DNA from: Segatella maculosa DSM 19339 = JCM 15638
Lineage (GTDB): Bacteria > Bacteroidota > Bacteroidia > Bacteroidales > Bacteroidaceae
Reading direction: 5' to 3'
NCBI RefSeq assembly: GCF_000382385.1
Contig: NZ_KB908328.1
Location: forward strand, 1-64,000
Length of the DNA stretch: 64,000 nt
Part shown: piece after piece, positions 15,018 to 36,009 of the stretch
How the letters are laid out: each line of letters starts with the position of its first letter
How positions within the stretch are numbered: the first letter of the stretch is position 1
The notes under the pieces: model-generated
The model's input: the letters and a program-made list of their open reading frames with translations, nothing else
Database searches by the model: none
Told to the model about the DNA's origin: nothing
Made by a program: the position numbers and the translations under genes

Positions 15018-18000
15018 TCACTTCAAACGATAGGCACGGAGCACGACGGGGCCCAGCAATCCCGATGGCCGAAGGGGTGAATCGGCCTTGTAAAAAGGAT
15101 AACTCGTGTAGGAGTGTGGCGTTTTCACGTTCGGTTGACTGTCGCCAATCAACCGATTCGGCCAGAGATTGGTGACCTTTACCTCCAAACAGTTAATGCC
15201 TTTGCGCAGTGCCGGCCTGATGTTTGCCACGTAAGGAGACTTCCAAAGCACGCCCATAGACCGGCCGTTGACGACGAGTTCGGCCATATCGCCCACCTTT
15301 CCCAAATCCAATGTCACCCTTGAAGCCCGTTTCAGCGTTTTGTCGAGCCGGAAGTGCGTGGTATAAACGGCTGTTCCCGAGAAGTATTTGACGGCGGTGT
15401 CGGCCAATTCAGTGTAAGAGCGCAATTTATCGAGGTGCATTGGGCCGGGACCGTCGGGCGTTTTGCCGAAAGAAACGTTCCAAGTTGTAGTCACGGGCCA
15501 CGTGCTGACGAGTTCTTCCCGTGGCGTTTCGAAATGTGTTAGCGTAGTCGGTTCGTCAAACACGACAAACAGCGCGTCGTTCTCCGTCAGATGGAGCCGG
15601 ACGGTCGTTTGTTCGTTCTCCATTCGATAGGCAACGGCCTCTGTTCTGCCCGTTTCGGGATGCCACAACCGCGGTCTGCGCCCCGTCACACGAAAGGCAA
15701 TGTCGGCCATTCGCTGTCGGGGGCGCATGTTGCCTATCCAATAGATTTCGGCTTCGGGTAAAGTGCGGTGGACAAAGCGTAGGTCTGACATATCATTACA
15801 GGTAACGTCGGGCCTCACGGCCATTGCCTTCAAAGCGTCTTCTACCCGCGATGCAACGAGAACATTGGGACGGTTGGTGTGCCATATGTCGTTTATCAAG
15901 CGGCGAAACTCTTCCTTGTCGCCCGTCAGCGATGGCTCCTCGACGGGTTCTTGGCCGCTGACGAACGCTCCCTGCCTGACCAATGCGGCAATCTTCCGCA
16001 GTACGGGAAGCGACATGCGGGCAGCATTCTTATCCAAGAAGAGCAAATGATAACGCGCTCCACTGGGTGTTTGCAGTCGATTGTCGTGACAAGAGACGAG
16101 ATGCATCAGTGCGTCGGCGTTGATATAATCGAAAGCGTAGCCTGACGGTATGTCGGGAAGCTGCCACGAGAAGATTCCGGTGATGCAATTGTCCTCACCG
16201 TAATAGTAAAGAACATCGGCCACGTTGTGCCCCTGCTGCAACAAATAAGAGCTACGTGCAAGGTAATTGATCCAAGGTTTGGCCTGATTGGCCCACGTTT
16301 CGTGCCGATTGAACCAATGACCATACTGCGCCAAGCCCAGACCCGGCCGCTTGTCGTCGACGGGTTGATGGGCCGAGTCGTGCAAGAAGAACTTGTTCAC
16401 GCCACAAGCCAATGCCAAATCGGCCACGGGTTTCAGGTTGCCGGGAAAGAAAGCATAGGCGCGGTTGTTCAATCCATCGACCGTGAAACTCTCGCAGGCG
16501 ACGATTGGCTTTCCATAAAGATGGGCCGTGGAAGCCGTTTCGCGGATATCGCATTCAGACATGACATGGTTTGCGCCGCCAGCACTGTCACGTGCCCAGA
16601 TGGCGGCCATCGGAACGTCGGCCCATTTCTTCACTTCCATTCCGTCAGCCAAATAAATACGGCCGTTCTCGTGCGACTCAAAGTAGGTCTTCATGCCCCA
16701 TTGCCTCAACACCCTTGCGGTTTGTCGGTACAGATTGTCGGCAATCAGTTCGCCGATGGTCTTGCGCCAATCCCACAGGAACTGTTCGCTCTGCCGCACA
16801 CTGCCAATGGGTTGCCCGGTCAATACTGGCAACCACTTGAGTAAACCGTAGCCGCGGCGTCTCTCAAACTCCTCGGCCATGCGCTCGGTCCACGTTTCCC
16901 ATCCCGCTTCATAGCTGTCGATGAGGAACGAACGAATACCTTTCGCCCCCATGTTTCCCTTAGTTGCCTGACGATACATCTGCAGATAGGTCGTAAGGTA
17001 ATCGGAAACGGCTGCCGAATCCAGCTTGTCGACTTCCAATCCCGTGGCTTCGGGCGGTGCCGGATGGTTTTTCTTCCCTGTAAGCGAGCAGCCGAAGCGA
17101 TAAATCCGCCATACACCTGCCGGGGCATTCCACGTCAAACGTCCGTCGGGAGCGACTTTGTCTGTCAGCAAGACAACATCGGCAGCCGAAGGTACATCGG
17201 CATCTTCGGGCGTTGCATAGCGCATCATGTCGTGCGGCGAGGCATAACCGGCCTTCTCCTCCGCGTGGTTTATCTTCGTCACGGGGTAGAATACCAACTC
17301 TGAGACCTTGATATCGCGGGCCGGTTTGGCTCCCCGCATCGCGGCTTCGAAGGTCTCTACGACAGGATTGTCAAACACAATGCGAAAGACCTTGGCCGTT
17401 GTGGGAGGGATTGTGACGGTCTGACAGACGATGCCACCGTGCGGAATGTCGCAAATACGGCGGAAATGCACGCCATCATCGCTCACCTCGACATGTTTCA
17501 ACACCGGCGCAGGCGCACAATACCAGTTGTGCCGCGCCCTGCCGTCGGCTATACGGACAGCTTTCATGGTCTGGGGTGTGGCAAAGCGATATTGTATCCA
17601 CGCATAACCGCGGCCGTCGTCGCGTGGCAAAGAAGACGCATTCGTCAGGTCACCGTCTGTCAACTGACCGACCGTAAAGCGGCCCCCGCTTGATTCCACG
17701 ACTGCGCCGAGCTGCGACAAGCTCCTGTCCGACGAGCTCAAGCGTACGCCCACCACGGCGATGTCATGGTAATAGCGGTCGGCTTCGGTCACACCTCCGG
17801 TCTTCAGGTTCTGATAGCGGCCGGGCATCTGATAAGGTTGAGGCAGCGATACCGTGATTTTCCGCCCGCCGTCAACGACAAATTCGCGCCACACCAACTT
17901 TTTCATCGCGCGTGCGGGGCTGACCCACGGACCACCGGTATTGCTCCAGCCCGGCGCACTCGTAATACCGCCCTCCATCTGCAGCGAGTCGAGAAGATGC

Positions 18001-18299
18001 AAAGCATATCGGAACGCATCTTGCCAGCCCTCGTCCATATAGATCAGACGCTTGCCCACAACCTGCGGCGTCTTCATTCCCGCATCGAAATGGTGAAGTC
18101 CCGCAATTCCCACGCGATCCATCCACAGGATATCCTTGCGGATACCGTCTTTCGTTACGTTCCCATTCATCCAATGCCACCAGACACAAGGGCGCGCCGA
18201 GGCTGGCGGAGCGACGAACAGCCGCTGCAACTGGGCCGTCTGCGCATACAGTATAGACCCCGAAAGCAGCAGAAAACTGAAGAAAAAATAGCGTTTCAT
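15018..18299 (-). CDS. GH106-like alpha-L-rhamnosidase
   Basis: A 1093-aa secreted enzyme, expected to cleave terminal alpha-L-rhamnose from complex glycans such as pectin rhamnogalacturonan. The signal peptide is MKRYFFFSFLLLSGSILYAQ. Diagnostic stretches include RPCVWWHWMNGNVTKDGIRKD (residues about 36-56), HHFDAGMKTP, TSAPGWSNTGGPWVSP and SYEAGWETWTERMAEEFERRRGY in the catalytic barrel. A C-terminal GH2-like sugar-binding sandwich follows (TLDLGKVGDMAELVVNGRSMGVLWKSPY, residues about 1010-1040). It is last of three co-oriented genes, 26 bp after the histidine phosphatase, and belongs to the minus-strand locus that runs up to the sigma factor at 30.9 kb. Length matches the family. Substrate choice is inferred. 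Confidence 0.85.
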   Translation of the reverse strand: MKRYFFFSFLLLSGSILYAQTAQLQRLFVAPPASARPCVWWHWMNGNVTKDGIRKDILWMDRVGIAGLHHFDAGMKTPQVVGKRLIYMDEGWQDAFRYALHLLDSLQMEGGITSAPGWSNTGGPWVSPARAMKKLVWREFVVDGGRKITVSLPQPYQMPGRYQNLKTGGVTEADRYYHDIAVVGVRLSSSDRSLSQLGAVVESSGGRFTVGQLTDGDLTNASSLPRDDGRGYAWIQYRFATPQTMKAVRIADGRARHNWYCAPAPVLKHVEVSDDGVHFRRICDIPHGGIVCQTVTIPPTTAKVFRIVFDNPVVETFEAAMRGAKPARDIKVSELVFYPVTKINHAEEKAGYASPHDMMRYATPEDADVPSAADVVLLTDKVAPDGRLTWNAPAGVWRIYRFGCSLTGKKNHPAPPEATGLEVDKLDSAAVSDYLTTYLQMYRQATKGNMGAKGIRSFLIDSYEAGWETWTERMAEEFERRRGYGLLKWLPVLTGQPIGSVRQSEQFLWDWRKTIGELIADNLYRQTARVLRQWGMKTYFESHENGRIYLADGMEVKKWADVPMAAIWARDSAGGANHVMSECDIRETASTAHLYGKPIVACESFTVDGLNNRAYAFFPGNLKPVADLALACGVNKFFLHDSAHQPVDDKRPGLGLAQYGHWFNRHETWANQAKPWINYLARSSYLLQQGHNVADVLYYYGEDNCITGIFSWQLPDIPSGYAFDYINADALMHLVSCHDNRLQTPSGARYHLLFLDKNAARMSLPVLRKIAALVRQGAFVSGQEPVEEPSLTGDKEEFRRLINDIWHTNRPNVLVASRVEDALKAMAVRPDVTCNDMSDLRFVHRTLPEAEIYWIGNMRPRQRMADIAFRVTGRRPRLWHPETGRTEAVAYRMENEQTTVRLHLTENDALFVVFDEPTTLTHFETPREELVSTWPVTTTWNVSFGKTPDGPGPMHLDKLRSYTELADTAVKYFSGTAVYTTHFRLDKTLKRASRVTLDLGKVGDMAELVVNGRSMGVLWKSPYVANIRPALRKGINCLEVKVTNLWPNRLIGDSQPNVKTPHSYTSYPFYKADSPLRPSGLLGPVVLRAYRLK

Positions 18300-18325
18300 C
18301 GTCCAAATTATTTGTGGTTACATTT

Positions 18326-19627
18326 CTAATTGCCCTGCAGATGCCCCGCATAGCGTTTCAGTTTCTCAAACACATACGCCTTGAAGTCTGTCCAATGATA
18401 ATAAGCTTTGGCCACGACCGGAAGGGGCAACATCGCTTCGTTCTCATTCAAAAGCACTTTGAAAAGCACATCTTTCTCTCCGCGCATGCGACGATAGAAA
18501 ACGAACTGCAGGTTACAAGCCATCGGGTAAATCCGATAGTTGCGCCAACCGCCCTCGGCCAATTTCTCCAAATCGGTTATCTGTTTTCCGAAGCCATTGA
18601 CGTCGAGCAAACAAACCAACGGCATCATCATCGTATCGTGCCCATAGCGCAGCGTTACACCCGGACGTTCAAGCGCAATACAGCTGTCGGCCTCTTCTAT
18701 AATCCTGCGAATAAGGAAACGCTGCGAATATACCTGCAGTCCCCCGTTCAGCGGACTCGGGCCATAGTTGATATACCACCACGCGTTCTTGCGCAACCAG
18801 CAATCATACAGCTCCTCGTCGGTGAACAAGTCGTAAAGAGTCTCGCTATGGCGCAGCTCTGTGCTTTGCACATTGCAGGCCAGATGATAAAGCTGGTCGT
18901 TCAATTGCAGGGCATTGATGGAGTCCCGCCAATAACGTTCGTCGTTAAACAGCTTCCGCATCAGGGAATCACACCGCGCATGACGTGCAGAGAAAGCCGC
19001 GAAGGCCTCCTTGGCAGTGGGCGTCATTTTCAGGCTGTCGAGATGCGCGTCACGGTAATTCATGTAATACATGTCGTGCCGAGAAGCGTCATGCTTGATT
19101 TGTAGACGAGAATTCAGCACCAACAACTGCTGCAGCGCGTTTTCCATCGATAAAATACAGCGAATCACCACCGTACTCTTAGCGTCTACCACGGCCCGTC
19201 CTGCGAAGATGCCCGGGAAACGCTCATACATACGTCGCGCAATGTCCTTATGCTGCCGTGCACCCAGTTCCGTCAATTCGCCCTCACGTCCTCGCGCCTC
19301 TTCACGAAAAAGCGCCACTCGGCGGAGAACATCCTTTCCAAAACGTGTGAGCTTGCCTTGCTGCTCGGCCCGACGAAGGGCCACGAACGGTCTGTTATAA
19401 TCGTTCACATTGATTAGATAGCGCGAACCGTGCCGCCCGTAATGACTGATGTAGAACGGCACATAGCCCTTCGGCGCCGGCGTGAGCTTCTGGTTTGCGG
19501 GCCCAGGATAGGCCACGTAGTTATTTCCCGAAAGGTTTTTATTCAGAAGTATCTCTCTGCGCGAAGTTTGCGCCGCGATGCTGATGGGAAAACAAAATAA
19601 AACTGCAACGAAAATGATGTTTTTCAT
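18326..19627 (-). CDS. histidine acid phosphatase family protein (MINPP/phytase-like)
   Basis: A 433-aa periplasmic phosphomonoesterase of histidine phosphatase clade 2. The signal peptide is MKNIIFVAVLFCFPISIAAQ. The phospho-histidine motif RHGxR is visible as YGRHGSRY near residue 63, and the proton-donor HD as RYGHDTMMMPL near residue 330. Bacterial and animal relatives are multiple inositol-polyphosphate phosphatases that dephosphorylate phytate, but glucose-1-phosphatase-like specificity is also possible. It lies between GH97 and GH106 in one operon-like run (70 bp and 26 bp gaps) and shares the locus with a glycerophosphodiesterase, which hints at phosphate or phospho-sugar scavenging. 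That link is inference. Confidence 0.85.
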   Translation of the reverse strand: MKNIIFVAVLFCFPISIAAQTSRREILLNKNLSGNNYVAYPGPANQKLTPAPKGYVPFYISHYGRHGSRYLINVNDYNRPFVALRRAEQQGKLTRFGKDVLRRVALFREEARGREGELTELGARQHKDIARRMYERFPGIFAGRAVVDAKSTVVIRCILSMENALQQLLVLNSRLQIKHDASRHDMYYMNYRDAHLDSLKMTPTAKEAFAAFSARHARCDSLMRKLFNDERYWRDSINALQLNDQLYHLACNVQSTELRHSETLYDLFTDEELYDCWLRKNAWWYINYGPSPLNGGLQVYSQRFLIRRIIEEADSCIALERPGVTLRYGHDTMMMPLVCLLDVNGFGKQITDLEKLAEGGWRNYRIYPMACNLQFVFYRRMRGEKDVLFKVLLNENEAMLPLPVVAKAYYHWTDFKAYVFEKLKRYAGHLQGN

Positions 19628-19697
19628 ACCTTATTATATTAGTAACGGCTACCGTCTGAGATGCTCGGCGGCAGCCACCTATTTCTATATATCCTCA

Positions 19698-21656
19698 TTA
19701 ACGGCGCGCTATGACCGCTGCCCAACCGCCATTTCTGACCATATCTATAGTCAGCTCCGTACCGTGGTCTACATTTTGCTCGCTCGTGCGATAGTCCATC
19801 GCCTGATAGCCGGCGTTCGGTCCGTCACAGAAAGCAGAAATCCGATAATCCACCCCGGCCGACAGAAAATCGAGCCGCACACGGAAATGGCGCACATTTT
19901 CTTTGCCGTTGCAGAAGCCACCCACAAACCAGCTGTCTCCCTTGCGGCGCGCCACGATGAAATACTCCCCTGCGCTGGCTTCCAACACACGCGTTTCGTC
20001 CCACGTAACCGGCACAGAGGCAATAAATCGCGTGCACTCCTCGTTTTTATAGTAATTTGTGGGATTATCCGCCAACATTTGCACGCCACTCTCAAAAATC
20101 ACATATAAAGCCATGTTGTAACACCGTGTGCCGATAGCGGCCGAGTTGGGACGCACAGAGCGATACACCTCCGGTTGCATGTTGATCATCGCGCCCGGTG
20201 TATAATCCATCGCACCCGCTGTGTTGCGGATAAATGGATAATAAACCGTGTTTTCGGGCGTGCATCTGCTCATCATCTCCATGCCCACAACACCCTCGTA
20301 CGACAGCACATTAGGAAACTTGAATTCCAATCCCGCCGGACTGTAGGCTCCATGGAAATCGACCACCAACTTGTGTTTGGCAGCCGCTTCTGCCACGCGT
20401 TCGTAAAAATTAACCATCCACTGATGACTGTGGTCCATAAAATCCACTTTCACACCGGCCACGCCCCATTCCTCATATTTTTTGAACAAATCGAAGTGCC
20501 GCTCAACGGTGAGCCACGATAACCACAGAACGACGCCCACGCCTTTCGATTTTCCGTAGCGAATCACCTCCTGAAGGTCAAGCGCATCATTTGGCACGAA
20601 AGGATCGCGCGTAGATTTGGCCCAGCCCTCGTCGAGCAGAATATATTCCAAGCCGAAACGGGCAGCAAAGTCGATGAAGTATTTATAAGTTGCCGTATTA
20701 CAGCCCGCTTTGAAATTTACATCTTTCCCATAGGGTGTGGCGCCACACCACCATTCCCACGACACTTTCCCCGGCCTTATCCAATCAGTCTCCTGCAATG
20801 CGCACGGTTCCGAGAGCACCACGGGAAGCGTTTGCATGGCTATCTCCTTCGAAGTCCCCAAAACCATATAGCGCCAAGGAAATGCGCGCGTTCCATTCGT
20901 GCGCGCAATATACGTCTCTTCACTCGTTACATTCATCGCACGGTCACTCTCTTCGGCCCACGCCAGTGGGCACTTGGGAAATGTAGCCGAGAAGCCGCCG
21001 CTTCCGTTGCGCTTTAAAAACATTTTCGGATAATCGAGCACACCTGTCTCCGACACCAATACGTTCATATCGTCTTTTCCCGTTAGCAGTGCAGGCAGTG
21101 TCGCCATTTTGCCGTCTGCAGGAGCAAAGAGTTGCTGGTGCACGTAGCGCGTCTCATACGAGGTGCGGAACTTGTCGGTTGGTTGTAAATGTGCCGTCAT
21201 GGGTACAATCGTTTGCAGATTGAAACTTTCGTCATCAACATCGAGCATCTTTCCCAATCGAGTCGCAAATCGATAAGCAACGGCATGGTCTGTCACCCTG
21301 AATTCTATGTAGAAATTTCCTTTGAACTTCAAAACGGCTTTTCGATACTTCGTCTCTATGCGCGAAAACTTCAACGGAACAACCGGTTCTTTCGTCTCAT
21401 TTACAATGCTTGAGTTGGCCGATAGTAGTTTGGCATTCCTCCCAAGCGTCCCTTTATTCGTTGTCAACGTTAAGTTGTTCTGCCGTAAAAGTTCTTTTCC
21501 GCCGAACGACACGCTGTAAGAAATCTCCTTGTCGGTCTGAACCGCAACTTTAATTTTTCCGCCCGGCGACAAAAGTTCTAATGTAGCAGCCTCAGCCCTT
21601 AGCCCGAGCAATGCGCTGAGCACAATTATTGTTCTTATGAATAATCTGAATATCAT
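19698..21656 (-). CDS. glycoside hydrolase family 97 (SusB-like)
   Basis: A 652-aa exported enzyme with a signal peptide MIFRLFIRTIIVLSALLGLRAEA. The N-terminal beta-sandwich (LLSPGGKIKVAVQTDKEISYSVSF) and the (beta/alpha)8 barrel motifs FAARFGLEYILLDEGW, GVGVVLWLSW, VKVDFMDHSHQWMVNFY and VVDFHGAYSPAGLE are typical of GH97. The family holds inverting alpha-glucosidases (SusB, Glu base) and retaining alpha-galactosidases (Asp nucleophile); the Asp in VKVDFMD suggests the retaining type, so an alpha-galactosidase is my preferred guess. It is preceded by about 550 bp of repeats (21.7-22.2 kb) that separate it from the GDPD gene. Confidence 0.88.
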   Translation of the reverse strand: MIFRLFIRTIIVLSALLGLRAEAATLELLSPGGKIKVAVQTDKEISYSVSFGGKELLRQNNLTLTTNKGTLGRNAKLLSANSSIVNETKEPVVPLKFSRIETKYRKAVLKFKGNFYIEFRVTDHAVAYRFATRLGKMLDVDDESFNLQTIVPMTAHLQPTDKFRTSYETRYVHQQLFAPADGKMATLPALLTGKDDMNVLVSETGVLDYPKMFLKRNGSGGFSATFPKCPLAWAEESDRAMNVTSEETYIARTNGTRAFPWRYMVLGTSKEIAMQTLPVVLSEPCALQETDWIRPGKVSWEWWCGATPYGKDVNFKAGCNTATYKYFIDFAARFGLEYILLDEGWAKSTRDPFVPNDALDLQEVIRYGKSKGVGVVLWLSWLTVERHFDLFKKYEEWGVAGVKVDFMDHSHQWMVNFYERVAEAAAKHKLVVDFHGAYSPAGLEFKFPNVLSYEGVVGMEMMSRCTPENTVYYPFIRNTAGAMDYTPGAMINMQPEVYRSVRPNSAAIGTRCYNMALYVIFESGVQMLADNPTNYYKNEECTRFIASVPVTWDETRVLEASAGEYFIVARRKGDSWFVGGFCNGKENVRHFRVRLDFLSAGVDYRISAFCDGPNAGYQAMDYRTSEQNVDHGTELTIDMVRNGGWAAVIARR

Positions 21657-21728
21657 GTTTATAATATAAAAAGTTATTTCTATCCGTTTCTATCTAAATT
21701 ATTTAAAATCCATTTGGCGATGATGCGG

Positions 21729-21948
21729 CCGAGGCCTCGGAAAGTAAAAATCATCTGACGATGGCATTTCCGAGGCCTCGGAAAGCAAAAAATCATCTGA
21801 CGATGACATTTCCGAGGCCTCGGAAAGCAAAAAATCATCTGACGATGGCATTTCCGAGGCCTCGGAAAGCAAAAATCATCTGACGATGGCATTTCCGAGG
21901 CCTCGGAAAGCAAAAAATCATCTGACGATAACATTTCCGAGGCCTCAG
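21729..21948. repeat. six tandem 41-42 bp units with a 12-bp palindrome
   Basis: Copies of CCGAGGCCTCGG begin at 21729, 21770, 21812, 21854, 21895 and 21937 (the last is CCGAGGCCTCAG). They are separated by a nearly constant AAAGCAAAAAATCATCTGAC-type spacer with GATGGCATTT. Period 41/42/42/41/42 bp. Translated on the minus strand it gives a repetitive peptide (EASEMPSSDDF) that changes frame with the 41-bp steps, so I do not think it is coding. It lies between the GDPD and GH97 genes, and degraded copies continue to about 22000. Confidence 0.9.
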
Positions 21949-22061
21949 AAAACAAAAAACCATTTGCAAATAGTAAAAAATCATTTGTTTCTAAGTAAAA
22001 TCATTCATGAAACACCTTTACACTTCCCTATCGTATAAAAAGTTGTATGTCAGTGCTGTAC

Positions 22062-22197
22062 ACTCCCCTCCCTTGAGAGAGATTGAAGTTGGGCATCTCA
22101 ATTCGTACTCCCCTCCCTTGAGAGAGATTGGAGTTGGGCTTCTCAATTCGTACTCCCCTCCCTTGGGAGGGGTTGGGGGTGGGCTCCCCCCCCCAAG
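22062..22197. repeat. three tandem 45-bp GC-rich units
   Basis: Units begin at 22062, 22107 and 22152. The first two carry ACTCCCCTCCCTTGAGAGAG, ATTGGAGTTGGGC and CTCAATTCGT; the third carries CTCCCTTGGGAGGGGTTGGG and a C-run. Each unit can fold on itself. The array ends 8 bp before the stop of the GDPD gene (minus) and could act as its terminator. It belongs with the GC-rich palindromes at 5083-5181 and 60408-60434. Confidence 0.8.
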
Positions 22198-22204
22198 GAT
22201 AAAC

Positions 22205-22969
22205 TTAATGCGCTTTGCATACCTCAATGGCTTCAAGAGGTTTGTTAGTTGTAAGGAAATCCACTCCTGCCGCTTTCAATCGTCGCATATCTTCTACTTT
22301 ATCGACTATCCACACGTTCACGTCCATGTGTAAACCGTGCGCTTCGTCTATCCAGTGTGGATTTTTATCAATAGCCTTTAGGCTGTAATCGATACCCGTG
22401 AGCCGTTCAACAAAAAGCTGTGCCGGCGTACGGTTCCCCGATAAATACGCCACTCTCGCCTTGGGATTGCATTTAACCAATTCAAGACACGCATCAAGAC
22501 TAAATGAAATATACTCCACCTTGTCCGCCACGCCATATTCGTCAACTGCTTTCAAAGTGGCACGTGCGGCCTCTTCATTCTGTGGCTTGGTTTTGTGTCG
22601 TTTAATCTCAATGATGAGTTTAGTCTTGCTCTCGGTTTCCTTCATCATTTGAAGCAAATCTTGCAATTGCGGCATTTTTTCACCATTCGAGAGCGTCAGC
22701 TCTTTGCACTCCTCATACGTGGCCTGTTGCAATACCACTCCCTTATAATCTTCGTCATGATTCACCATCAAATGTCCGTCGGTCGTAAGCCAGATGTCGA
22801 TTTCCGAACCGTAAATGTTCAGTCGGAGCGCATTCTGCAGCGATGCCCTTGAGTTCTCGGCTGCGCCCGGCGTATCCCAATAGCCCCTGTGGGCAATCAC
22901 TCTGCACTGTCCCCACGCAATTGTTGTTCCGATAAGGACGAACAGCAAATTTATAAATACTCTTTTCAT
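22205..22969 (-). CDS. glycerophosphodiester phosphodiesterase family protein
   Basis: Cleaves glycerophosphodiesters (deacylated phospholipids such as glycerophosphocholine or glycerophosphoinositol) to glycerol-3-phosphate and an alcohol. The 254-aa protein has a signal peptide (MKRVFINLLFVLIGTTIAWG) and therefore acts outside the cytoplasm. The catalytic core is RVIAHRGYWDTPGAAENS (His-Arg and Glu), SEIDIWLTTDGHLMVNHD (Glu/Asp metal ligands and the second catalytic His). Further family elements are IIEIKRH near residue 120 and VNVWIVDK...GVDFLTTNKP at the C-terminus. It is 48 bp downstream of the DUF6528-like lipoprotein gene in the sigma-regulated locus, so it is probably exported to work with that SusCD system. 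Confidence 0.92.
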   Translation of the reverse strand: MKRVFINLLFVLIGTTIAWGQCRVIAHRGYWDTPGAAENSRASLQNALRLNIYGSEIDIWLTTDGHLMVNHDEDYKGVVLQQATYEECKELTLSNGEKMPQLQDLLQMMKETESKTKLIIEIKRHKTKPQNEEAARATLKAVDEYGVADKVEYISFSLDACLELVKCNPKARVAYLSGNRTPAQLFVERLTGIDYSLKAIDKNPHWIDEAHGLHMDVNVWIVDKVEDMRRLKAAGVDFLTTNKPLEAIEVCKAH

Positions 22970-23017
22970 TTTTATAAGTATGTAAATTCAAAATAAATGT
23001 TCCAAGTTGCGCGCGTA

Positions 23018-24031
23018 TTAACGGCTCTGCGTAAAAGTATGCTCGTCGGGATAGCTGAACGCGTTCTGCAACATCCAGCGCGCCTTGTATATTTTGGCAT
23101 TAGGCTTCATGTAGATTGTTCGGCCGCCACTGTCGATGACCCTGTCAGACCAGTAGTTTTTATTGGGCGCAAGTAGAACGATGGGATATTCCTTTGGACC
23201 AGATGAAATACTCTTGATGTTGCTCGTAACCGCGCCCGAGAATTTTGTAAAAGTCTTTGTAGTTACATCAAACTTGTAAACCGCCGAGACCGTTGTAACC
23301 CAAAGCCCCTTCTCGCCGTACACGGGAAAGAGGTCGTGAGCTTCGGCCGCTCTGTCGGGCAAGGCGAACGTCTCGCGAGGAACGAGGGCCATCTTCCCCC
23401 CACTCTTCTCATAAGCCCAGCTCAGCAGCTTATCGTCGGCCGTAGTCCACAGTCGGAAATGCTCTCGGTCCCAAACGGCGTTATGCGCAAAAAAGTTGTC
23501 GAACTCGCCAATCGGTTCTTCCGAATAAACTGCCGTGCTGTCCACTTCGTACAGCTTCAATTTGTTCCCCAACTTGTCGGGCGCATCCGAGCAGGCCACC
23601 ACGACGTTCCCGTCGGGCAACACCTCCGCTGAATGCGGGTATCCCATAGGCAACGCATAGAACATCAGCTTGCTGTCGCTCATTCTCACGATGGCAACAC
23701 CGCCGCGCGTAGCCGTAATCAGCAGATATTTGCAATTGTAAATGGGCTTTACTTCATCAAGCAACGTAAACTTCGGCTTTTCACTGTCGGGGATGTTCGA
23801 TTTCTGCGGGTTCCACTCCCACACACGTTCGCCGGTCGATACGTTGACAACCACCGCTTTGTCTTCTTGTTGGTCTGCCATTGCCAGCAGCCGGGCACCG
23901 CCTTCTACCGTGTTACTCAAGGGTGGGAGCGGTATCATCGGACCGTAAGTCTCTTCACACGAGGGGAGCGTCCCCACGCCTATCAGCAGCAAGCAATAGG
24001 CTAACAGTTTGTTTTTATTTAGTTTCATCAT
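23018..24031 (-). CDS. beta-propeller-like lipoprotein (DUF6528-like)
   Basis: A 337-aa predicted lipoprotein: the lipobox-like LIGVGTLPSCEE lies near residue 25 from the ATG at 24031. The remainder is repetitive, with motifs such as KAVVVNVSTGERVWEWNP, GGVAIVRMSDSKLMFYALP, HSAEVLPDGNVVVACSDA and FFAHNAVWDREHFRLWTTADDKLLSWAYE, consistent with a PQQ/WD-like beta-propeller. I associate it with DUF6528, known from Bacteroidetes loci, but that is recollection, not a database match. It is 14 bp after the SusD stop, so it is in the same operon, and is probably a surface glycan/ligand-binding accessory protein. No catalytic residues can be inferred. The frame extends to 24052, but that start overlaps susD, so 24031 is preferred. 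Confidence 0.7.
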   Translation of the reverse strand: MMKLNKNKLLAYCLLLIGVGTLPSCEETYGPMIPLPPLSNTVEGGARLLAMADQQEDKAVVVNVSTGERVWEWNPQKSNIPDSEKPKFTLLDEVKPIYNCKYLLITATRGGVAIVRMSDSKLMFYALPMGYPHSAEVLPDGNVVVACSDAPDKLGNKLKLYEVDSTAVYSEEPIGEFDNFFAHNAVWDREHFRLWTTADDKLLSWAYEKSGGKMALVPRETFALPDRAAEAHDLFPVYGEKGLWVTTVSAVYKFDVTTKTFTKFSGAVTSNIKSISSGPKEYPIVLLAPNKNYWSDRVIDSGGRTIYMKPNAKIYKARWMLQNAFSYPDEHTFTQSR

Positions 24032-24045
24032 AAGATTGTTTGTAA

Positions 24046-25626
24046 TTACCAATTGGGATTGTTGGGGGCTAATTTCGGGTTATTTTCCATCTGCTTGGTC
24101 GGTACGGGCCACCAATAATCGCGAGCGGCATTGAAGGTACGCCTCTCGATAACCGTTCCGTCAAACTTCTGTACGTCGATATTATTCATTTGGGTCTCGG
24201 ACAAGCGCAAACGACGCAGGTCGTTATACCATGTCCCTTCTCCCGCAAATTCTATTCTGCGTTCGTAAAGCAGGGCTTCTGTCACCGCTTCGGGCGTGGA
24301 GGGATAGTTCAATGCGCCTGCAACGGTAAAGCCGGCACGCTTGCGAATGGCCTTCACGGTCTGTTCCCACACCGTGGCATCCATCTCACCCAAAGCATTC
24401 TTTGCCTCGGCATACATCAACAGCACATCTGCATAGCGCAGCAACATGATATTGATGGGCGAACAATTCTGCCCCAAGTTCTTGTCGGCCTTGCTTGGTG
24501 CCTTATCTGTGTAGACCGTGTATTTTCGATAGATAAACCCGGTTTGCTTGTTGGTAAAGTTCTTGTTCGTATTATTCGCCGTGACCTTCTCACCCATCCA
24601 TGTAGCTCCCGGATAAACAATGGTAGCATAGAAGCGTGGATCCATGTCCTTATAGCCCTTCGATTTCTTATAGGCAGACGCGGCACGCTTCTTTCCATCT
24701 TTCATCAAATACGCGTCTACGAGATCTTTCAGCGGTGCCGCTCCATTATACTGGCGCATTACAAGATCGAAACTATGTCCGTTCCCTTTCGGTGAGGAGA
24801 TACATTCGAGGTCAAAAATGGATTCATCACAGCCCTCCGCTTTTAGCGTGAACAGTTCGCCGTATTTAGGATATAGGCTATAAGTGCCCAGGTCTATAAC
24901 AGCTTTGGCGGCATCAGCAGCTTCTTTCCAACGCTCCATATTGTTATTTGGATTACAGAGCGGACTTGCCTCAAACAATAACAATTTTGCTTTCAATGTC
25001 AATGCAGCTCCTTTCGTAGGTCTTCCGGTCCCCTCTTTACCATAGCTTGTAGGCAGTATAGGAGCAATGGCGTCAAGTTCAGACACGATAAAGTCTACTA
25101 TCTTGCGGTGCTCGGTACGAGGCAAATACGTTTGTGATAAGTTGGGGCTTGAAGTTATTAAAGGAGCCGAATTGTAATAAACCGCCAAAAGATAGTAATA
25201 GAAAGCACGCAGAAATCTTGCCTGCGCTTTCATCTTGTCAATATCATCAGCCGAGAACTCTTGGTTCTTATCGATATTTTCCAACAACGTGTTGCATCGA
25301 CCGATACCGACGTAGCAATTGTGCCACCGCCCTGAGATAACGGAGCCGTCGGCGGTATGGCTTCCTTTTGCAATATCACTCCAATTTAGGCTGTTACTGT
25401 AGCAATAAGCATTCGGAGTGGCACATTCTTCCAATGTTACCGAGGCATCACCAAACATCGTATTGCTTAAAAGTGGTAGGTAGCACGCCGTGAGTCCACC
25501 TTCTGCGTTCTTGGCACCATACCAAAATGTGTTATCTGTATAAGAGGTCGTCGGTTCAAAATCCATATTGCAGGAGCAAAGACCGATGAGCGCAGCTCCC
25601 AAAAGGATATTTTTTATTGTTTTCAT
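24046..25626 (-). CDS. SusD/RagB family outer-membrane lipoprotein
   Basis: A 526-aa surface lipoprotein that captures the ligand and caps the SusC channel. The lipobox is ALIGLCSCNMDFEP. Typical SusD stretches follow: the N-terminal TPR-like region, KMKAQARFLRAFYYYLLAVYYNSAPLI, GAALTLKAKLLLFEASPLCNP, and the C-terminal LLRYADVLLMYAEAKNALGEMD and YERRIEFAGEGTWYNDLRRLRL, ending WWPVPTKQMENNPKLAPNNPNW. It is 10 bp after the SusC stop. The ligand is unknown; neighbours include GDPD, phosphatase, GH97 and GH106. Confidence 0.95.
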   Translation of the reverse strand: MKTIKNILLGAALIGLCSCNMDFEPTTSYTDNTFWYGAKNAEGGLTACYLPLLSNTMFGDASVTLEECATPNAYCYSNSLNWSDIAKGSHTADGSVISGRWHNCYVGIGRCNTLLENIDKNQEFSADDIDKMKAQARFLRAFYYYLLAVYYNSAPLITSSPNLSQTYLPRTEHRKIVDFIVSELDAIAPILPTSYGKEGTGRPTKGAALTLKAKLLLFEASPLCNPNNNMERWKEAADAAKAVIDLGTYSLYPKYGELFTLKAEGCDESIFDLECISSPKGNGHSFDLVMRQYNGAAPLKDLVDAYLMKDGKKRAASAYKKSKGYKDMDPRFYATIVYPGATWMGEKVTANNTNKNFTNKQTGFIYRKYTVYTDKAPSKADKNLGQNCSPINIMLLRYADVLLMYAEAKNALGEMDATVWEQTVKAIRKRAGFTVAGALNYPSTPEAVTEALLYERRIEFAGEGTWYNDLRRLRLSETQMNNIDVQKFDGTVIERRTFNAARDYWWPVPTKQMENNPKLAPNNPNW

Positions 25627-25636
25627 AATGCGATGA

Positions 25637-28600
25637 TTAGAAAGTGAGGTTTAGACCGAAAGAAAAGGTTTTTAAGTTAGGATACTCATAGAGATTGGTT
25701 CGTGTACTGGTGATTTCCGGATCCCACAGCTTGAAATCTGACAATGTCCACAAATTCTGGGCACTCACATACACTTGAAGGGCGGTCGCATGCAACGGAG
25801 CGATTATTTTTCGTGGCAGACTATACGCCAATTGTATGTTCTTCAAGCGTAAATAAGCACAATTATACAACCACTGCGTAGAGGGTATAAAGTTTTGTGT
25901 TGCATTCGTCGCTGTTGTCAGCAAAGGAAGTTTAGCTTTGGGATTCTGCGGCGTCCACGAATTGGTTGCCCAATCCATTGTCACACCGGCTCCGTTGTTA
26001 AACGGATAGGCCAGATTATCTTTCAAATAAGCATAAACGGAACCAACTCCTTGGAATTGGGCTTCAAGAGTAAGCCCCTTCCAACCACAAGACATACCGA
26101 AAGAATACGTCAGTTCGGGGATAGAGTTCTTCGTAATGATTTTGTCTTTATCATCAATGATTCCATCGGCATGGTTATTGGCATAACGAATATAGCCGGG
26201 ACGCAGACTGGCCTTGTTTCCATAAACGGCAGTTGCATTGTCTATCTCTGCCTGATTCTGGTAGAAACCGTCTGCTTGATACACATAGTAGGAGCGAATG
26301 GGATACCCTTCTTTGGTTATTTTAACATTATCGCCCGATATAATCTGACTGCCGTTCAACGATACGACCTTATTCTTCACATAACATACGGACCCTTGAA
26401 TGCCATAATAAAAATCTCCCAAATGCTGACGCCATGAAACTGACGCCTCGAAACCCCGGTTTCGCACTGTTCCCACGTTGGTTTTGGGCCCTGAAAGGCC
26501 TCCTAATTGCGCCGGGACTGTACGCGACATAATAATATCGTAGGTACGTTTGTTGAAATAATCGAGTTCTACGTTCAGTTTCCCGTTAAATGCCAGCAAA
26601 TCTATGCCGATATTAGTGGCAGCTGTCTTCTCCCAACCCAGATTCGGGTCAACAAGACCAGTGATGGCATACCCTCCGGCAATCTTATTCCCGAAAGAAT
26701 AATTCTGACTTAAACTCCTATAAGTCATATAATAGCTGTAGGGGTCGACGGATTCGCTTCCCATTATACCATACGAAGCCCGTAACTTCAACAAATCAAT
26801 CTGTTTGATTTTGAAGAATTTCTCACGACTGATGTTCCAACCGGCCATGATTGAAGGGAACCATTCCCATCGGCGTTCGCGAGAAAGATTGCTCGAACCG
26901 TCATAGCGCAAGGTTCCTTCCAACAAATAGCATTCATTAAAGGTGTAAGCCAAACGTCCATAGAAAGAATTGATACGCTTCTTACTCGACGAACCCGTAG
27001 CCTTTGCGAGCGTTTGATTGGTCAATGCATCGAACTCCTCCAATGTGTTGTCGTTAAAGCCTTCGTTATAAGCCTGAAAGTTCGTACTGCCGTTATGTTG
27101 CCAATCCTGTCCTATCATCACATGGATGTCATGCTTTCGATAAGTGTTTTCCCATACGAGCCGATGCGAAATCGTATATTGATTGGTCACTGCGTCAAAT
27201 TCTTTCAAACGGGGCGCACTGTTGTTGAATTGCTTCACGTCTCCTGTCTTAGGATTAATGGTGTGCATCAAAGGAATAAAATTCTTACTGAAATGGTCGA
27301 TACGCCGAAATCCTAACGTTGCATAATATTTAAGGTGCGATGCCAACTGTACATCCGTACCCACCGTGGCTAACAGCTCTTGGAAATTACGATAGGTCAC
27401 GCCCTGTTCTACTTCCATACGTGGGTTCTCCACATTATTACGACCGGGCGTAAACACCCATGTGGAACCGTATTTCCCGTCTTTATGATAATCCGAGAAG
27501 ATAGGAAGACCCCGCATCACGGTCGACAATATCGTGCTGGTTCCATATCCCATCTCGTTGAAGTTGCGGATATTGCCCTGAACGGTCCCACTCAGATTGA
27601 TTCCCTTTGCGACACGGGCATTTAGTTTCATGTCGAACGAATAACGTGCTGCATCATCATTCTTGATGAATACGCCGGTCTGCCCCGTATAACCCAGCCC
27701 TATTGTATAAGTGACATCATCAGTTCCACCGGATACACGGGCGTTATGCTGCTGCATGAAACCGTTTTTCATGCAGATTTTGAACCAATCGCTTGCCGGA
27801 TATACGTCAGGATTGGTTTTCATCCCATCCATATATTCGTAAATCTGGCCGTCTGTATAAGACACGGCACCGGGTGCCACGCCCGAATTTATTTCGGCAA
27901 GATTGCGAAGCCGCATGTAAGCAATCGGGTCAGTAACGACATCAGGTAGATAGGTAGGGGCCTGTATGCCAAACTTTGCGTGGTATTCAATCTTCGGACG
28001 CCCTTTCTTGCCTTTCTTTGAAGTGATGAGGATAACGCCATTGGCAGCTTTCAAGCCATAGATAGCCGCCGACACGTCTTTCAACACGCTGATGGATTCT
28101 ATCGTGGCCGGGTCGATTTCGTTGATACTGTACTCCACTCCGTCAAGCAATACCAACGGTGCTCCACCGGTAGCATTCAGCGAATTCACGCCACGAATGG
28201 TGATATTGGCATTGTCAACACCCGGTTTCGCTCCGCTTTGATTGACCCAAAGCCCCGGTGTATTATAGAGCATCTGCGTGGAATTGGTGATGGGCTGGTT
28301 GGCCTTCCGTTCTGCGTCAATTGTTGCGACAGAACCGGTCAACGATACTTTCTTTACAGTTCGATAACCCACCACGACCACTTCGTCAAGCGCCTTGTTG
28401 TCTTCAGACAGCACGATATTGATTGCTGAACGATTACCAACATGCACCGTTTGAGGCAGATAACCTATATACGAAATCTCCAGCGAGGAATGTTCCGGAG
28501 CGTCTAATGTAAAGTTACCGTTAACGTCGCTTACCACGCCTTGCCCGGTAGCCTTGACTCTGATACTGGCCCCGATAATCGACTCGCCATTCCGGTCTTT

Positions 28601-28957
28601 GATAGTTCCCGAAACTTTATGGGATTTCTGTTTCTCCGACTTTGTAGAAGGAACCGAGCGAGATGCCGGCTTTGACACGATAACATTCTTACCTTTTATT
28701 TCGTAAGCAACGTCCTGACCGGCTAAAATCTGTTGGACGGCTTGCCGCAGGTTGGCCGCAGAAACCGTTATGTTCTTCTCGGTGTTCAGGTCGGTTCCCT
28801 CATATACAAAAGAATAGCCGCTCTTTTGCTGCAGTTCTTCCATCGCCTGTTTCACGGTAACGTTTTTCAGATTCAAGGAAAGGTTTTGTGCAAATAATGA
28901 TAAACTGCCACAGACAAAAGCCAATGTTATGATCCAATGTCTTTTTTTGTCATTCAT
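25637..28957 (-). CDS. SusC/RagA TonB-linked outer-membrane protein with STN (signalling) domain
   Basis: A TonB-dependent transporter of 1106 aa that imports oligomers bound by SusD. After the signal peptide (start ATG at 28957, MNDKKRHWIITLAFVCGSLSLFAQ) comes an STN secretin/TonB N-terminal domain (NLSLNLKNVTVKQAMEELQQKSGYSFVYEG, residues about 25-100). Next are a carboxypeptidase-like CPD (SGTIKDRNGESIIGASIRVK), the TonB box/plug region (DEVVVVGYRTVKKVSLTGSV), and the barrel with the terminal FGLNLTF. The STN domain is the hallmark of transporters that signal to a FecR-type anti-sigma factor, and that pair is encoded just upstream. The ORF extends to 29020, but those residues precede the signal peptide and lack a good start. 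Confidence 0.95.
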   Translation of the reverse strand: MNDKKRHWIITLAFVCGSLSLFAQNLSLNLKNVTVKQAMEELQQKSGYSFVYEGTDLNTEKNITVSAANLRQAVQQILAGQDVAYEIKGKNVIVSKPASRSVPSTKSEKQKSHKVSGTIKDRNGESIIGASIRVKATGQGVVSDVNGNFTLDAPEHSSLEISYIGYLPQTVHVGNRSAINIVLSEDNKALDEVVVVGYRTVKKVSLTGSVATIDAERKANQPITNSTQMLYNTPGLWVNQSGAKPGVDNANITIRGVNSLNATGGAPLVLLDGVEYSINEIDPATIESISVLKDVSAAIYGLKAANGVILITSKKGKKGRPKIEYHAKFGIQAPTYLPDVVTDPIAYMRLRNLAEINSGVAPGAVSYTDGQIYEYMDGMKTNPDVYPASDWFKICMKNGFMQQHNARVSGGTDDVTYTIGLGYTGQTGVFIKNDDAARYSFDMKLNARVAKGINLSGTVQGNIRNFNEMGYGTSTILSTVMRGLPIFSDYHKDGKYGSTWVFTPGRNNVENPRMEVEQGVTYRNFQELLATVGTDVQLASHLKYYATLGFRRIDHFSKNFIPLMHTINPKTGDVKQFNNSAPRLKEFDAVTNQYTISHRLVWENTYRKHDIHVMIGQDWQHNGSTNFQAYNEGFNDNTLEEFDALTNQTLAKATGSSSKKRINSFYGRLAYTFNECYLLEGTLRYDGSSNLSRERRWEWFPSIMAGWNISREKFFKIKQIDLLKLRASYGIMGSESVDPYSYYMTYRSLSQNYSFGNKIAGGYAITGLVDPNLGWEKTAATNIGIDLLAFNGKLNVELDYFNKRTYDIIMSRTVPAQLGGLSGPKTNVGTVRNRGFEASVSWRQHLGDFYYGIQGSVCYVKNKVVSLNGSQIISGDNVKITKEGYPIRSYYVYQADGFYQNQAEIDNATAVYGNKASLRPGYIRYANNHADGIIDDKDKIITKNSIPELTYSFGMSCGWKGLTLEAQFQGVGSVYAYLKDNLAYPFNNGAGVTMDWATNSWTPQNPKAKLPLLTTATNATQNFIPSTQWLYNCAYLRLKNIQLAYSLPRKIIAPLHATALQVYVSAQNLWTLSDFKLWDPEITSTRTNLYEYPNLKTFSFGLNLTF

Positions 28958-29099
28958 GATAATGTTGTTTGAAGGTGTTAAAAATAGGAATAAATGATAC
29001 GCAAAGCTTTCGGAAAGCATTCCGAGAGTTGCTTTCGTGCTTAGGGCGAGAAGGAGGTTATTCGTTTCATCATAATGGTTTTAAATGGTTTATTGTCGA

Positions 29100-30101
29100 T
29101 TAATAGATAATCACTTTGCGTCCGTGGCTCTTGTAACGCAGCTTACCTGTCGCGGCAAAAGCATCGAGTATGTCTTGCAAGGACTGTTCCTGCGGATTGA
29201 ATGTGCCGAAGAAACGCCGCCGGGCCACACGGTCGCCTTCGAAAGAGATGACTACGCCGTAATAACGTTCAAGGTCTTTCACGACTTCTCCGAGCTTTTC
29301 GCCATTAAAGGTGATGATGCCGGCAACCCATTGCGTTGACGCTTCCACGGGAGCATTCGCAACTGAGACCTTTCCCGACGGCTTTTCCAAGACTGCTTGT
29401 TGGCCCGGCACGAGTATCATGTCGCCGTCCTGACGCACCAAACTGCTCAGTGCAATCTCTCCTTCCGTCAGTGAAACGATGCTCCGTTCATCGCCGGGAT
29501 AATCCTTAAAATTGAACTTCGTGCCCAAATCGCGCACTTTCAGATGCTTTGATTCCACGATGAAAGGTAGCGCTTTGTTCTCTTTCACCTCGAAATATCC
29601 CTCGCCCGAAAGGCGGACGTGCCGATCTTCGATGCCGAAGCGCTGTGAATAGGTTATTTTCGACTGGGCATTGAGCCAAACCGTCGTACCGTCTGGCAGC
29701 GTCAGCTTCATGCGTGAGCCTACGGGCGTCTCGATGACGACGTCTGCCACCGTCCGAAGGGCACGATTCGTCCAACCCACGTACACAAGACTGCTCACAA
29801 CCAGCAACGCCGCAAAGGAAGCTGCCGCGTACCACAGCCTGCGTCGATGCCTTTTCCGGATCAACGTGCTTGCTTCGTCAGCCATACGCTGCTTGAACAA
29901 GGCAAAGGCTTTCTGCGAATCATACCGACCCAGCGACGCTGCATCGGCCGAAACCCAAACCTCCCGCCATGCGTTGAAATAGGTTTCGTTCTCCGGCGCG
30001 GCCGAAATCCATGTGCGAAGCTCCTGTTCCTGCGGGGCGGTCAGTTCGTTGGCCAGATAACCCACGATAAGGTCTTGAATGTGATGGTCTGTTGTTTTCA
30101 T
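29100..30101 (-). CDS. FecR family anti-sigma factor
   Basis: A single-pass inner-membrane protein of 333 aa (ATG at 30101). The N-terminal cytoplasmic part (DHHIQDLIVGYLANELTAPQEQELRTW, residues about 5-30) is the anti-sigma zinc-finger-like domain; an arginine-rich stop (RKRHRRRLWYAA) leads into the membrane segment AAASFAALLVVSSLVYVGW near residue 110. The periplasmic half is the FecR domain (VVIETPVGSRMKLTLPDGTTVWLNAQSKITYSQRFG... through RFFGTFNPQEQSLQDILDAFA). It receives the signal from the STN domain of the downstream SusC and releases the sigma factor at 30.3-30.9 kb. 142 bp separate it from susC. The ORF extends to 30158, but the preferred start is a better fit for this family. Confidence 0.93.
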   Translation of the reverse strand: MKTTDHHIQDLIVGYLANELTAPQEQELRTWISAAPENETYFNAWREVWVSADAASLGRYDSQKAFALFKQRMADEASTLIRKRHRRRLWYAAASFAALLVVSSLVYVGWTNRALRTVADVVIETPVGSRMKLTLPDGTTVWLNAQSKITYSQRFGIEDRHVRLSGEGYFEVKENKALPFIVESKHLKVRDLGTKFNFKDYPGDERSIVSLTEGEIALSSLVRQDGDMILVPGQQAVLEKPSGKVSVANAPVEASTQWVAGIITFNGEKLGEVVKDLERYYGVVISFEGDRVARRRFFGTFNPQEQSLQDILDAFAATGKLRYKSHGRKVIIY

Positions 30102-30182
30102 AAATGGTTTGTTATGTTGATGACGAAATAAAATAATCAAAGGGTAGTCGGAAAGCAATTTTTTTGCAAAAAGTTTGATGCC

Positions 30183-30259
30183 TTTCCCAAAAAGCTATTG
30201 AACTTCTTCCAAAAAGCTCATAAGCTTTTCCGAGATTGCTCATAAGCTTTCTTGGGAAA
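30183..30259. promoter_or_regulatory. nested inverted repeats between the sigma and FecR genes
   Basis: An inner palindrome AAAAGCT / AGCTTTT (30212-30218 and 30223-30229, 4-nt loop) sits inside an outer imperfect pair TTTCCCAA...AAGCT / AGCTTT...TTGGGAAA (30183-30196 and 30245-30259). It lies in the 193-bp gap between the sigma-factor stop and the FecR start. It could be an attenuator that lowers anti-sigma expression relative to sigma, or a terminator. No T-tract follows. Confidence 0.5.
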
Positions 30260-30294
30260 ACAGTTTATAAGAAGTATTTTCAGCCAAAGGGACA

Positions 30295-30894
30295 TCAGCA
30301 TCCGGGCAGCAACATCAGCACGAGCGAAATGAGATAGCGGTGCAAATCTTTCGCCAAAAGCTCCAGTGCGTGCTTGATATGATACTTCACAGTGTTGATG
30401 GAGATGCCTGATTGGAGGGCAATCTCATCATATTTCAGCCCCGAAAAACGGCTCATCCGAAACACCTTTCGGCATTCTTCGGGCAACCGACTGATGGCTT
30501 TCGCGATTTCCTCCTCAAGTTCGTTCTCCAATAAGCGCCCCAGCGGATAACTGCTGTTTTGCAGGCTGTCGATGCCGGGCATTTCCCGAGGGCTTATCCC
30601 CGACATCTGTACTTCGCGCCGGCGATATTGGGATTTCAATTCGTCTAAACAGCGGTTGTGAACACAGCGAACTAAATAATTACGAACAGATGTATTGATC
30701 GATAAACGCTCGCGAGCCTCCCACAAATGAAAGATAACGTCGCCCACTATCGTTTCTGCCAAGAAGTCATCGTGCACATATTGCACAGCGATGTGGCACA
30801 AAACAGCATAATGCCTATCGAATAAGTATCGATAAGCACGCTCATCTCCTTGTTTCAGGGCCTCGACGATCAGCTCTTCGTTATAGGTTGTCAT
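30295..30894 (-). CDS. ECF-type RNA polymerase sigma factor (FecI-like, Bacteroidetes family)
   Basis: A 199-aa extracytoplasmic-function sigma factor. Region 2 (ALKQGDERAYRYLFDRHYAVLCHIAVQYVHDDFLAETIVGDVIFHLWE, residues about 11-60) and region 4 (ISRLPEECRKVFRMSRFSGLKYDEIALQSGISINTVKYHIKHALELLAKDL, residues about 135-185) are clear and separated by a short linker. It is the first gene of a sigma/FecR/STN-SusC cascade and is expected to drive susC-susD when FecR lets it go. It is divergent from the GH29 fucosidase. TACCTTTG at 30920-30927 provides a promoter. Confidence 0.93.
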   Translation of the reverse strand: MTTYNEELIVEALKQGDERAYRYLFDRHYAVLCHIAVQYVHDDFLAETIVGDVIFHLWEARERLSINTSVRNYLVRCVHNRCLDELKSQYRRREVQMSGISPREMPGIDSLQNSSYPLGRLLENELEEEIAKAISRLPEECRKVFRMSRFSGLKYDEIALQSGISINTVKYHIKHALELLAKDLHRYLISLVLMLLPGC

Positions 30895-30919
30895 ATTTTT
30901 CTGTCACCGATTTTGGGTG

Positions 30920-30927
30920 CAAAGGTA
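30920..30927 (-). promoter_or_regulatory. TAnnTTTG promoter of the ECF sigma gene
   Basis: The minus strand reads TACCTTTG, 25 nt before the ATG at 30894. Confidence 0.6.
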
Positions 30928-31036
30928 ATGCTTTTTGACTGTCCGCGCCTGATGTCTGCCGAAAAAAAAGCCGTTTCTGCAGGCGAAGAAAAGCCAAATG
31001 ACGGGCCAAGTTCTTGCAGGTTCGGGAAGAAATGGA

Positions 31037-31044
31037 TAACTTTG
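31037..31044 (+). promoter_or_regulatory. TAnnTTTG promoter of the GH29 gene
   Basis: TAACTTTGC lies 36 nt before the ATG at 31081, which argues against the much longer open frame that begins at 30850. Confidence 0.6.
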
Positions 31045-31080
31045 CAAGCAGAAACCTATGTCTCAATCAACCAACCTGAC

Positions 31081-35983: not shown

Positions 35984-36009
35984 AGCGTTTGTGTTGATGA
36001 TACAGACTA

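Follow-up and report, generated by a model that had tools for sequence, protein, structure and literature searches.

A SusCD pair is normally taken to import glycans, and the question raised by one such pair in Segatella maculosa DSM 19339 (= JCM 15638) is whether it imports a glycan or a phosphodiester. The window, a stretch of 64,000 nucleotides (positions 1 to 64,000 of contig NZ_KB908328.1, hereafter C10, which is 106,786 b long in an assembly of 3.31 Mb that is 99.88% complete), holds the pair among nine minus-strand genes that span 15018-30894 exactly. The genome is termed Prevotella-type here, its enolase being 96% identical to the enolases of the Segatella baroniae and Prevotella illustrans genomes. 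An earlier note on this DNA had read these genes as a sigma factor and anti-sigma factor, SusC, SusD, a propeller-like lipoprotein, a glycerophosphodiester phosphodiesterase (GDPD), two glycoside hydrolases (GH97 and GH106) and a phosphatase, and had proposed that the GDPD and phosphatase beside SusCD suggest uptake of glycerophospho- or phospho-sugar compounds, or of a glycan with phosphodiester links. The genes and families are borne out by the open reading frame (ORF) listing and by Pfam, with every family above its curated cut-off. We consider it moderately probable that the first six genes (block A, 22205-30894) encode an outer-membrane uptake system for glycerophosphodiesters controlled by an extracytoplasmic function (ECF) sigma factor and FecR, and that the last three (block B) are separate or accessory. 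The features, in the order of transcription, are:

30295..30894, minus strand: ECF sigma factor, 199 aa (Pfam Sigma70_r2/r4_2; TIGR02985 162 bits, cut-off 126)
29100..30158, minus strand: FecR-type anti-sigma factor (FecR and FecR_C above cut-off; start probably ATG 30101, from sequence)
25637..29020, minus strand: SusC-type TonB-dependent transporter with STN (STN, CarboxypepD_reg, Plug, barrel; TIGR04056 879 bits; start probably ATG 28957)
24046..25626, minus strand: SusD lipoprotein of a group often found with glycerophosphate genes (SusD_RagB, SusD-like_3; 829 bits on a SusD profile that includes this SusD)
23018..24052, minus strand: DUF6528 protein, predicted beta-propeller lipoprotein (PF20138 193 bits; LPSC signal end at the N-terminus)
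22205..22969, minus strand: GDPD, signal peptide judged by eye (PF03009 77.7 bits, cut-off 23.6; nearest solved chain 3no3, E 2e-58)
21657..22204, no strand: spacer between GDPD and GH97, 548 b, two tandem arrays (from sequence)
19698..21656, minus strand: GH97, predicted retaining alpha-galactosidase type (PF10566/14508/14509; 3a24, E 1e-119; KVDFMD kept)
18326..19627, minus strand: histidine acid phosphatase, branch 2, His_Phos_2 (PF00328; nearest solved chain 7r5y, E 1e-84; RHGSR and RYGHD motifs)
15018..18299, minus strand: GH106 alpha-L-rhamnosidase (PF17132 1025 bits; nearest solved chain 6q2f, E 2e-242)

Block A contains the sigma factor, FecR and the STN domain on SusC, all three identified by Pfam (with TIGR02985), and its gene order SusC, SusD, DUF6528, GDPD places a predicted phosphodiesterase near the SusCD pair. 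The single minus-strand run described earlier stands as to strand and gene order, but it is not evenly packed: gaps between listed ORFs inside either block are at most 136 b (70 and 26 b in block B), and the gap between GDPD and GH97 is 548 b. Because this spacer bears repeats and separates the two genes, the run is better treated as two blocks, with GH97 and GH106 co-oriented with SusCD but lying behind the spacer. The later FecR and SusC starts would widen the gaps preceding these genes to 193 and 142 b.

An alignment search with DUF6528 gave 32 named loci, of which five (L030, L031, L033, L035 and L037) share the SusC at 42-47% and the SusD at 40-46% by tblastn, the window SusD being 40-48% identical to theirs. 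A SusD profile built from these five and the window SusD, run on whole genomes, separated a score class of 16 SusD loci (669-951 bits) from the next best at about 530 bits; the class consists of the window, the five named loci and ten loci from the family of genome G594. Besides the window genome, SusD proteins scoring at least 668 bits were found in one of 395 genomes of the phylum (G594) and in none of 295 of the order (best other 529 bits), and no genome among 379 of the family had one at E 1e-130; the family of G594 had them in nine of 195 genomes. These searches scored few first-look candidates per genome (e.g. 3 of 58), which makes the absences soft. Around the window genome the group seems to be uncommon and unevenly spread, and this distribution suggests that SusCD arrived horizontally.

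Glycerophosphate genes recur beside these SusD genes. The enzymes counted were GDPD, GlpD, phospholipase C, the PF01663 phosphodiesterase, metallophosphoesterase and a purple-acid-phosphatase-like gene, and ten of the 16 loci, window included, have a phosphoesterase or GlpD within 8 kb of SusD; leaving the window aside, glycerophosphate or phosphoesterase genes lie near nine of the 15 close relatives. Within 8 kb, GDPD was present in 6 of the 16, GlpD in 5, phospholipase C in 4 (once on the opposite strand) and DUF6528 in 9. The order in L130 is FGGY kinase, aquaporin, DeoR, GlpD, GDPD, SusC, SusD, phosphodiesterase, and in both L132 and L136 it is DeoR, GlpD, SusC, SusD, phospholipase C, GDPD. 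L137 reads DeoR, GlpD, SusC, SusD, DUF6528, and since it holds both DUF6528 and the DeoR-GlpD-SusCD arrangement it ties DUF6528 to the glycerophosphate setting. SusC and GDPD of L130 are each broken into pieces, in a locus that is otherwise a complete one of the glycerophosphate type. Family names come from Pfam for proteins of L079, L130-L133, L137 and L138 and from similarity to those for the rest, and at some loci the flank is shorter than 8 kb (1.4 kb on one side of L137). A TIM barrel resembling xylose isomerase is encoded at L037 and L133; a cobamide link through the L037 barrel was considered and dropped, the NCBIfam CbiR match being below cut-off.

Two comparisons indicate how far this exceeds chance. 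In the next-best SusD loci, L080-L088, which are nine of the 15 other places at E 1e-100, none of the nine has these enzymes, also at E up to 1e-3; several appear by eye to be of the alpha-mannan or sulfatase kind, with a GH97 in L085. Ten of 16 against zero of nine gives a Fisher p of 0.0024, and collapsing to genus (7 of 12 against 0 of 8) gives 0.010. In the nine genomes that hold the ten loci of G594's family there are 22 GDPD genes in 46.9 Mb (23 rows, two L130 pieces being one gene), and GDPD lies within 8 kb of SusD at five of these ten loci against 0.083 expected (Poisson p 3e-8). At genus level it does so at three of six (p about 5e-5, a value computed with an ad hoc correction for the number of loci in each genus). 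The frequent company of GDPD, GlpD, kinase and aquaporin, DeoR, phospholipase C and phosphoesterases around the SusCD relatives, together with a GDPD count far above chance, supports glycerophospho uptake for block A, the part of the original proposal that held; it lends nothing to block B.

For the ligand, cellular location, regulation and order of steps in block A we infer the following. Candidate ligands are deacylated phospholipid head groups or glycerol-phosphate chains, which SusD would capture with help from the DUF6528 surface propeller and SusC would import. The STN domain would report binding to FecR, so that the sigma factor would be freed and expression raised, and a periplasmic GDPD would split the diester into glycerol-3-phosphate and an alcohol. 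Glycerol-3-phosphate would then pass to GlpD, encoded elsewhere in the genome: a GlpD homologue (54%) was found on contig C1, apart from neighbours of the kinase, aquaporin, DeoR or GDPD type. The window locus itself has no DeoR gene.

The "propeller-like lipoprotein" of the earlier reading is a DUF6528 protein with an LPSC signal end, and its confident AlphaFold model (mean pLDDT 89.6, 39 sequences) is a beta-propeller. The model matches the LRP6 propellers at Z of about 24; 8bmy, a B. theta surface lipoprotein with cyanocobalamin, is a Foldseek match at rank 22, and many unrelated propellers match too, so the comparison is informative only as far as the propeller fold. A role as surface capture protein is suggested by its place: the gene is directly 3' of SusD in seven of the nine group loci with a DUF6528 gene, and in L031 and L035 a single gene intervenes. 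A calcineurin-like metallophosphoesterase of the L031 type is found near SusD in six DUF6528 loci (L031, L035, L032, L042, L045 and L055), and in four of the six the SusD is unrelated. This is no more than suggestive of DUF6528 as a general marker of phospho-substrates. Divergent DUF6528 genes also stand head to head with histidine acid phosphatase genes in L019, L020 and L022, all from one other genus and three of eight other family loci. We found no paper naming DUF6528 in a search that covered few subscription journals.

The window GDPD, aligned with 3no3, retains H27, E56, D58 and H71 of the His-Arg, Glu-x-Asp and His motifs, functional residues of GDPD enzymes. It is 63% identical to a stand-alone paralogue in the same genome (L129, 8594-9367, minus strand) and had no tblastn match in the loci of the SusCD relatives, and for these reasons its pairing with SusCD seems to have arisen separately from the relatives' pairings. 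The copy next to SusCD may derive from this stand-alone gene. A wider reading is tentative, and we hold it with less than even confidence: that a distinct, sparse Bacteroidota SusCD lineage is a dedicated importer of glycerophosphodiesters (head groups or glycerol-phosphate polymers) with DUF6528 for surface capture, and that it entered at least one Prevotella-type genome and was re-paired there with a local GDPD under ECF/FecR control. If true, this would extend the role of SusCD to lipid-derived nutrients through a lineage tied to glycerol-3-phosphate breakdown, would give DUF6528 its first testable role, and would make the SusD sequence a possible marker of phospholipid-debris use in Bacteroidota.

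Several observations weigh against a glycerophosphodiester system. Six of the 16 loci (L030, L033, L037, L133, L134 and L135) are without such enzymes nearby; at two of these, L134 and L135, SusCD is accompanied by regulators and DUF6528. The neighbourhood enzyme queries were taken from the loci themselves, which favours those loci; the genome count of GDPD alone is free of this bias. The chance of the window's own GDPD lying within 8 kb of SusD is about 2%, which is not tiny, and GH genes continue on the same strand after block A. In the SusD tree the window SusD sits on a long branch (1.17) at an unresolved fork, and L080-L082, which have sulfatase-like genes, fall in the same group with 98/97 support. 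Since these three lie inside the supported group and its base is unresolved, the 16 loci are not one established clade, and "lineage" here denotes a score class. The ligand class may be broader, and another anionic ligand is possible.

The genome has a second locus of similar make-up on contig C11 (L128, 813-14763), in which a sigma-FecR-SusC-SusD series occurs with two DUF4996-bearing GDPDs, a 347-aa protein without a family match, a heparinase-like protein and an MFS permease for which PgtP, UhpC and GlpT are the top-scoring NCBIfam models, none of them reaching cut-off. Its SusD, at 162 bits on the SusD profile, is outside the window's SusD group. Two of the places among the genome's four GDPD matches are SusCD loci.

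Block B presents a different picture. Its GH97 matches retaining alpha-galactosidase chains (3a24/5e1q, E about 1e-119) far better than SusB chains (E about 2e-40), so by sequence it is predicted to be closest to the retaining alpha-galactosidase type and not to the SusB-type alpha-glucosidase. Matches to the phosphatase at E 1e-30 or better occur in 102 of 120 genomes of the genus. Its close homologues had no GH97 or GH106 beside them in any of 11 loci (of the 13 best places outside the genome, about 5 kb each side), and one such locus, L146, adjoins an L079-type phosphodiesterase. A scan of the 41 other loci with a SusD found no such phosphatase at a distance of 8 kb or less from it. By tblastn GH106 had no match in the 32 DUF6528 loci, ten SusD loci or nine further SusD loci, and GH97 had two, about 9 kb from DUF6528 in L058 and near the more distant SusD of L085; the 15 close SusCD relatives had neither. 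The phosphatase was rejected as a specific part of the uptake system, given how many genomes of the genus hold its family and the lack of a shared GH97 or GH106 neighbour in the 11 close loci. Most likely, block B is a separate or accessory unit; its narrow gaps suggest that it may be one transcript, and its substrate may contain rhamnose and galactose.

Alternatively, the nine genes might form one locus for a phosphodiester-decorated glycan, e.g. a bacterial rhamnan whose side groups are alpha-galactose and glycerol phosphate, from which GDPD would remove glycerol phosphate, the phosphatase would free phosphate, and GH97 and GH106 would remove galactose and rhamnose. The rhamnans of streptococci are substituted with glycerol phosphate and hexoses, the genes are co-oriented and closely spaced in block B, and a GH97 of alpha-galactosidase type, a GH106 of the alpha-L-rhamnosidase family and a GDPD suited to a glycerol-phosphate branch all fit such a polymer. 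The repeat spacer divides the run, however, and the absence of GH106 near the SusCD relatives, of the phosphatase near other SusD genes, and of GH97 or GH106 beside close phosphatase homologues makes this unlikely; a literature search on rhamnose, glycerol phosphate and Prevotella polysaccharide utilisation loci (PULs) led to a single paper, on Roseburia genomes. Joint degradation of a phosphodiester glycan by the four enzymes finds no support beyond adjacency and a shared strand. We give a similarly low probability to an ordinary PUL for a rhamnose- or galactose-containing glycan in which GDPD and phosphatase are bystanders. PULs often combine SusCD with GH97 and GH106, most genomes of the genus have the phosphatase family, the genome has a GDPD paralogue on its own at another place, the SusD group includes sulfatase-like loci, and the more distant L085 has a GH97; but the close SusCD relatives have neither hydrolase and more than half have glycerophosphate or phosphoesterase genes, and a GDPD would lie this near one given SusD in the window genome with only the small chance stated above.

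Uptake of an inositol phosphate (phytate or glycerophosphoinositol), with a MINPP-like phosphatase as the key enzyme, is very improbable. Solved chains named MINPP are among the matches of the phosphatase (E 4e-38 or weaker), and the head-to-head DUF6528 genes of L019, L020 and L022 adjoin this phosphatase family in one other genus. The enzyme is closer to 7r5y, though, and carries RYGHD where a MINPP-named chain has RFAHAE; it lacks HAE, the proton-donor site of MINPP-type phytases, and identity as a MINPP-type phytase was ruled out by this motif. It also belongs to block B, and the surroundings in which its homologues occur are unrelated.

The spacer between the blocks is largely filled by a 42-bp array of 5.6 copies (21729-21963) and a 45-bp array of 2.8 copies (22062-22185). 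Three stretches were folded as RNA, and the 42-bp array alone stood out: 21725-21845 forms strong hairpins (z -7.2, 0 of 200 shuffles as good), whereas 22080-22204, over the 45-bp array, is unremarkable (z -1.2, equalled by 28 of 200 shuffles). At its core the 42-bp unit has a perfect palindrome, TTTCCGAGGCCTCGGAAA, with 21 sites in the genome, five of them in this spacer. Palindrome-based arrays of 41-42 bp are dispersed over contigs C5 (5661-6540), C9 (11754-12020) and C10. Upstream of block A there is one further feature:

30920..30927, minus strand: TACCTTTG, a match to TAnnTTTG 25 b upstream of the sigma factor ATG, candidate promoter element

TAnnTTTG is the Bacteroidota housekeeping -7 motif. 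The window has 40 matches against 33.4 expected, and 14 of 100 shuffles reach 40, so a single match is weak. There was no match in the listed gaps preceding FecR, SusC or GH97; a motif before the sigma gene and none before SusC fits, weakly, sigma-dependent expression of SusC. Promoter-like and terminator-like sites were not commoner than in shuffled sequence.

Block A resembles several known systems in part. Glycerol-3-phosphate (glp) systems with a GlpQ-type GDPD are known, and the SusCD relatives join FGGY kinase, aquaporin, DeoR, GlpD and GDPD to SusCD; the window genome differs in the separate location of its GlpD homologue and in the lack of DeoR at the locus. PULs regulated by ECF, FecR and STN-SusC also occur in Bacteroidota. 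They share with the window the sigma factor, anti-sigma factor and STN-SusC in order, then SusD, but in the window the gene that immediately follows SusD and DUF6528 encodes a phosphodiesterase, and the repeat spacer precedes the GH genes.

The nearest published parallel is the PusCD phosphate utilisation systems (PUSI and PUSII) of Flavobacterium johnsoniae, for which, in the accessible parts of the source, the SusCD-like pair is proposed to serve organic phosphorus, lipid head groups among it (PMC8115612); the available part of a second paper also proposes SusCD import of organic phosphorus beside phosphodiesterases for Flavobacterium PusCD (PMC8812569). As far as the former describes them, the PUS and the window locus both place a SusCD-like pair near predicted periplasmic phosphodiesterases or phosphatase, and an ECF sigma factor (Fjoh_4171) occurs in PUSI and a FecR (Fjoh_3252) in PUSII (PMC8115612), where the window has both. 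The enzymes differ: PUSI has pf00149 and pf16670 proteins and PUSII has PhoA1, which carries pf13653 (PMC8115612), the short GDPD_2 domain of Pfam, and the window has a PF03009 GDPD. The main text of that paper, so far as available, does not contain "GDPD", "pf03009" or "glycerol". The PUS are induced by phosphate depletion (PMC8115612, accessible part), whereas the window's SusCD relatives carry glycerol-type genes and DeoR regulators, which would point to carbon use as much as to phosphorus. PusD is described as polyphyletic, with six published forms in the accessible part (PMC8115612), and the window SusD is set beside PusCD by gene content and not by PusD1/2 sequence. In BtuB-BtuG, too, a surface lipoprotein adjoins a TonB-dependent transporter, according to the portions available (PMC10404256, PMC6143338), but the match of DUF6528 to 8bmy is at the level of a common propeller fold (TM about 0.5, 12% identity). 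Among the matches listed, in a search that covered few subscription journals, we found no report of this glycerophosphate-linked SusCD group other than the papers on PusCD. Import of organic phosphorus by SusCD is known in outline from Flavobacterium, and what appears to be a new form of it is the present group of SusCD with its glp link and DUF6528.

Other genes of the window lie around this run. A GH29 fucosidase gene (30850-32709, plus strand) is divergent from the sigma gene. In 34424-45272 a sulfatase gene is followed by a second SusCD locus, which also encodes a GH2 and a protein of the heparinase II/III-like kind, and 46261-54974 holds a third SusCD-like pair, then a 335-aa ORF without a Pfam match and two thioredoxin-like proteins.

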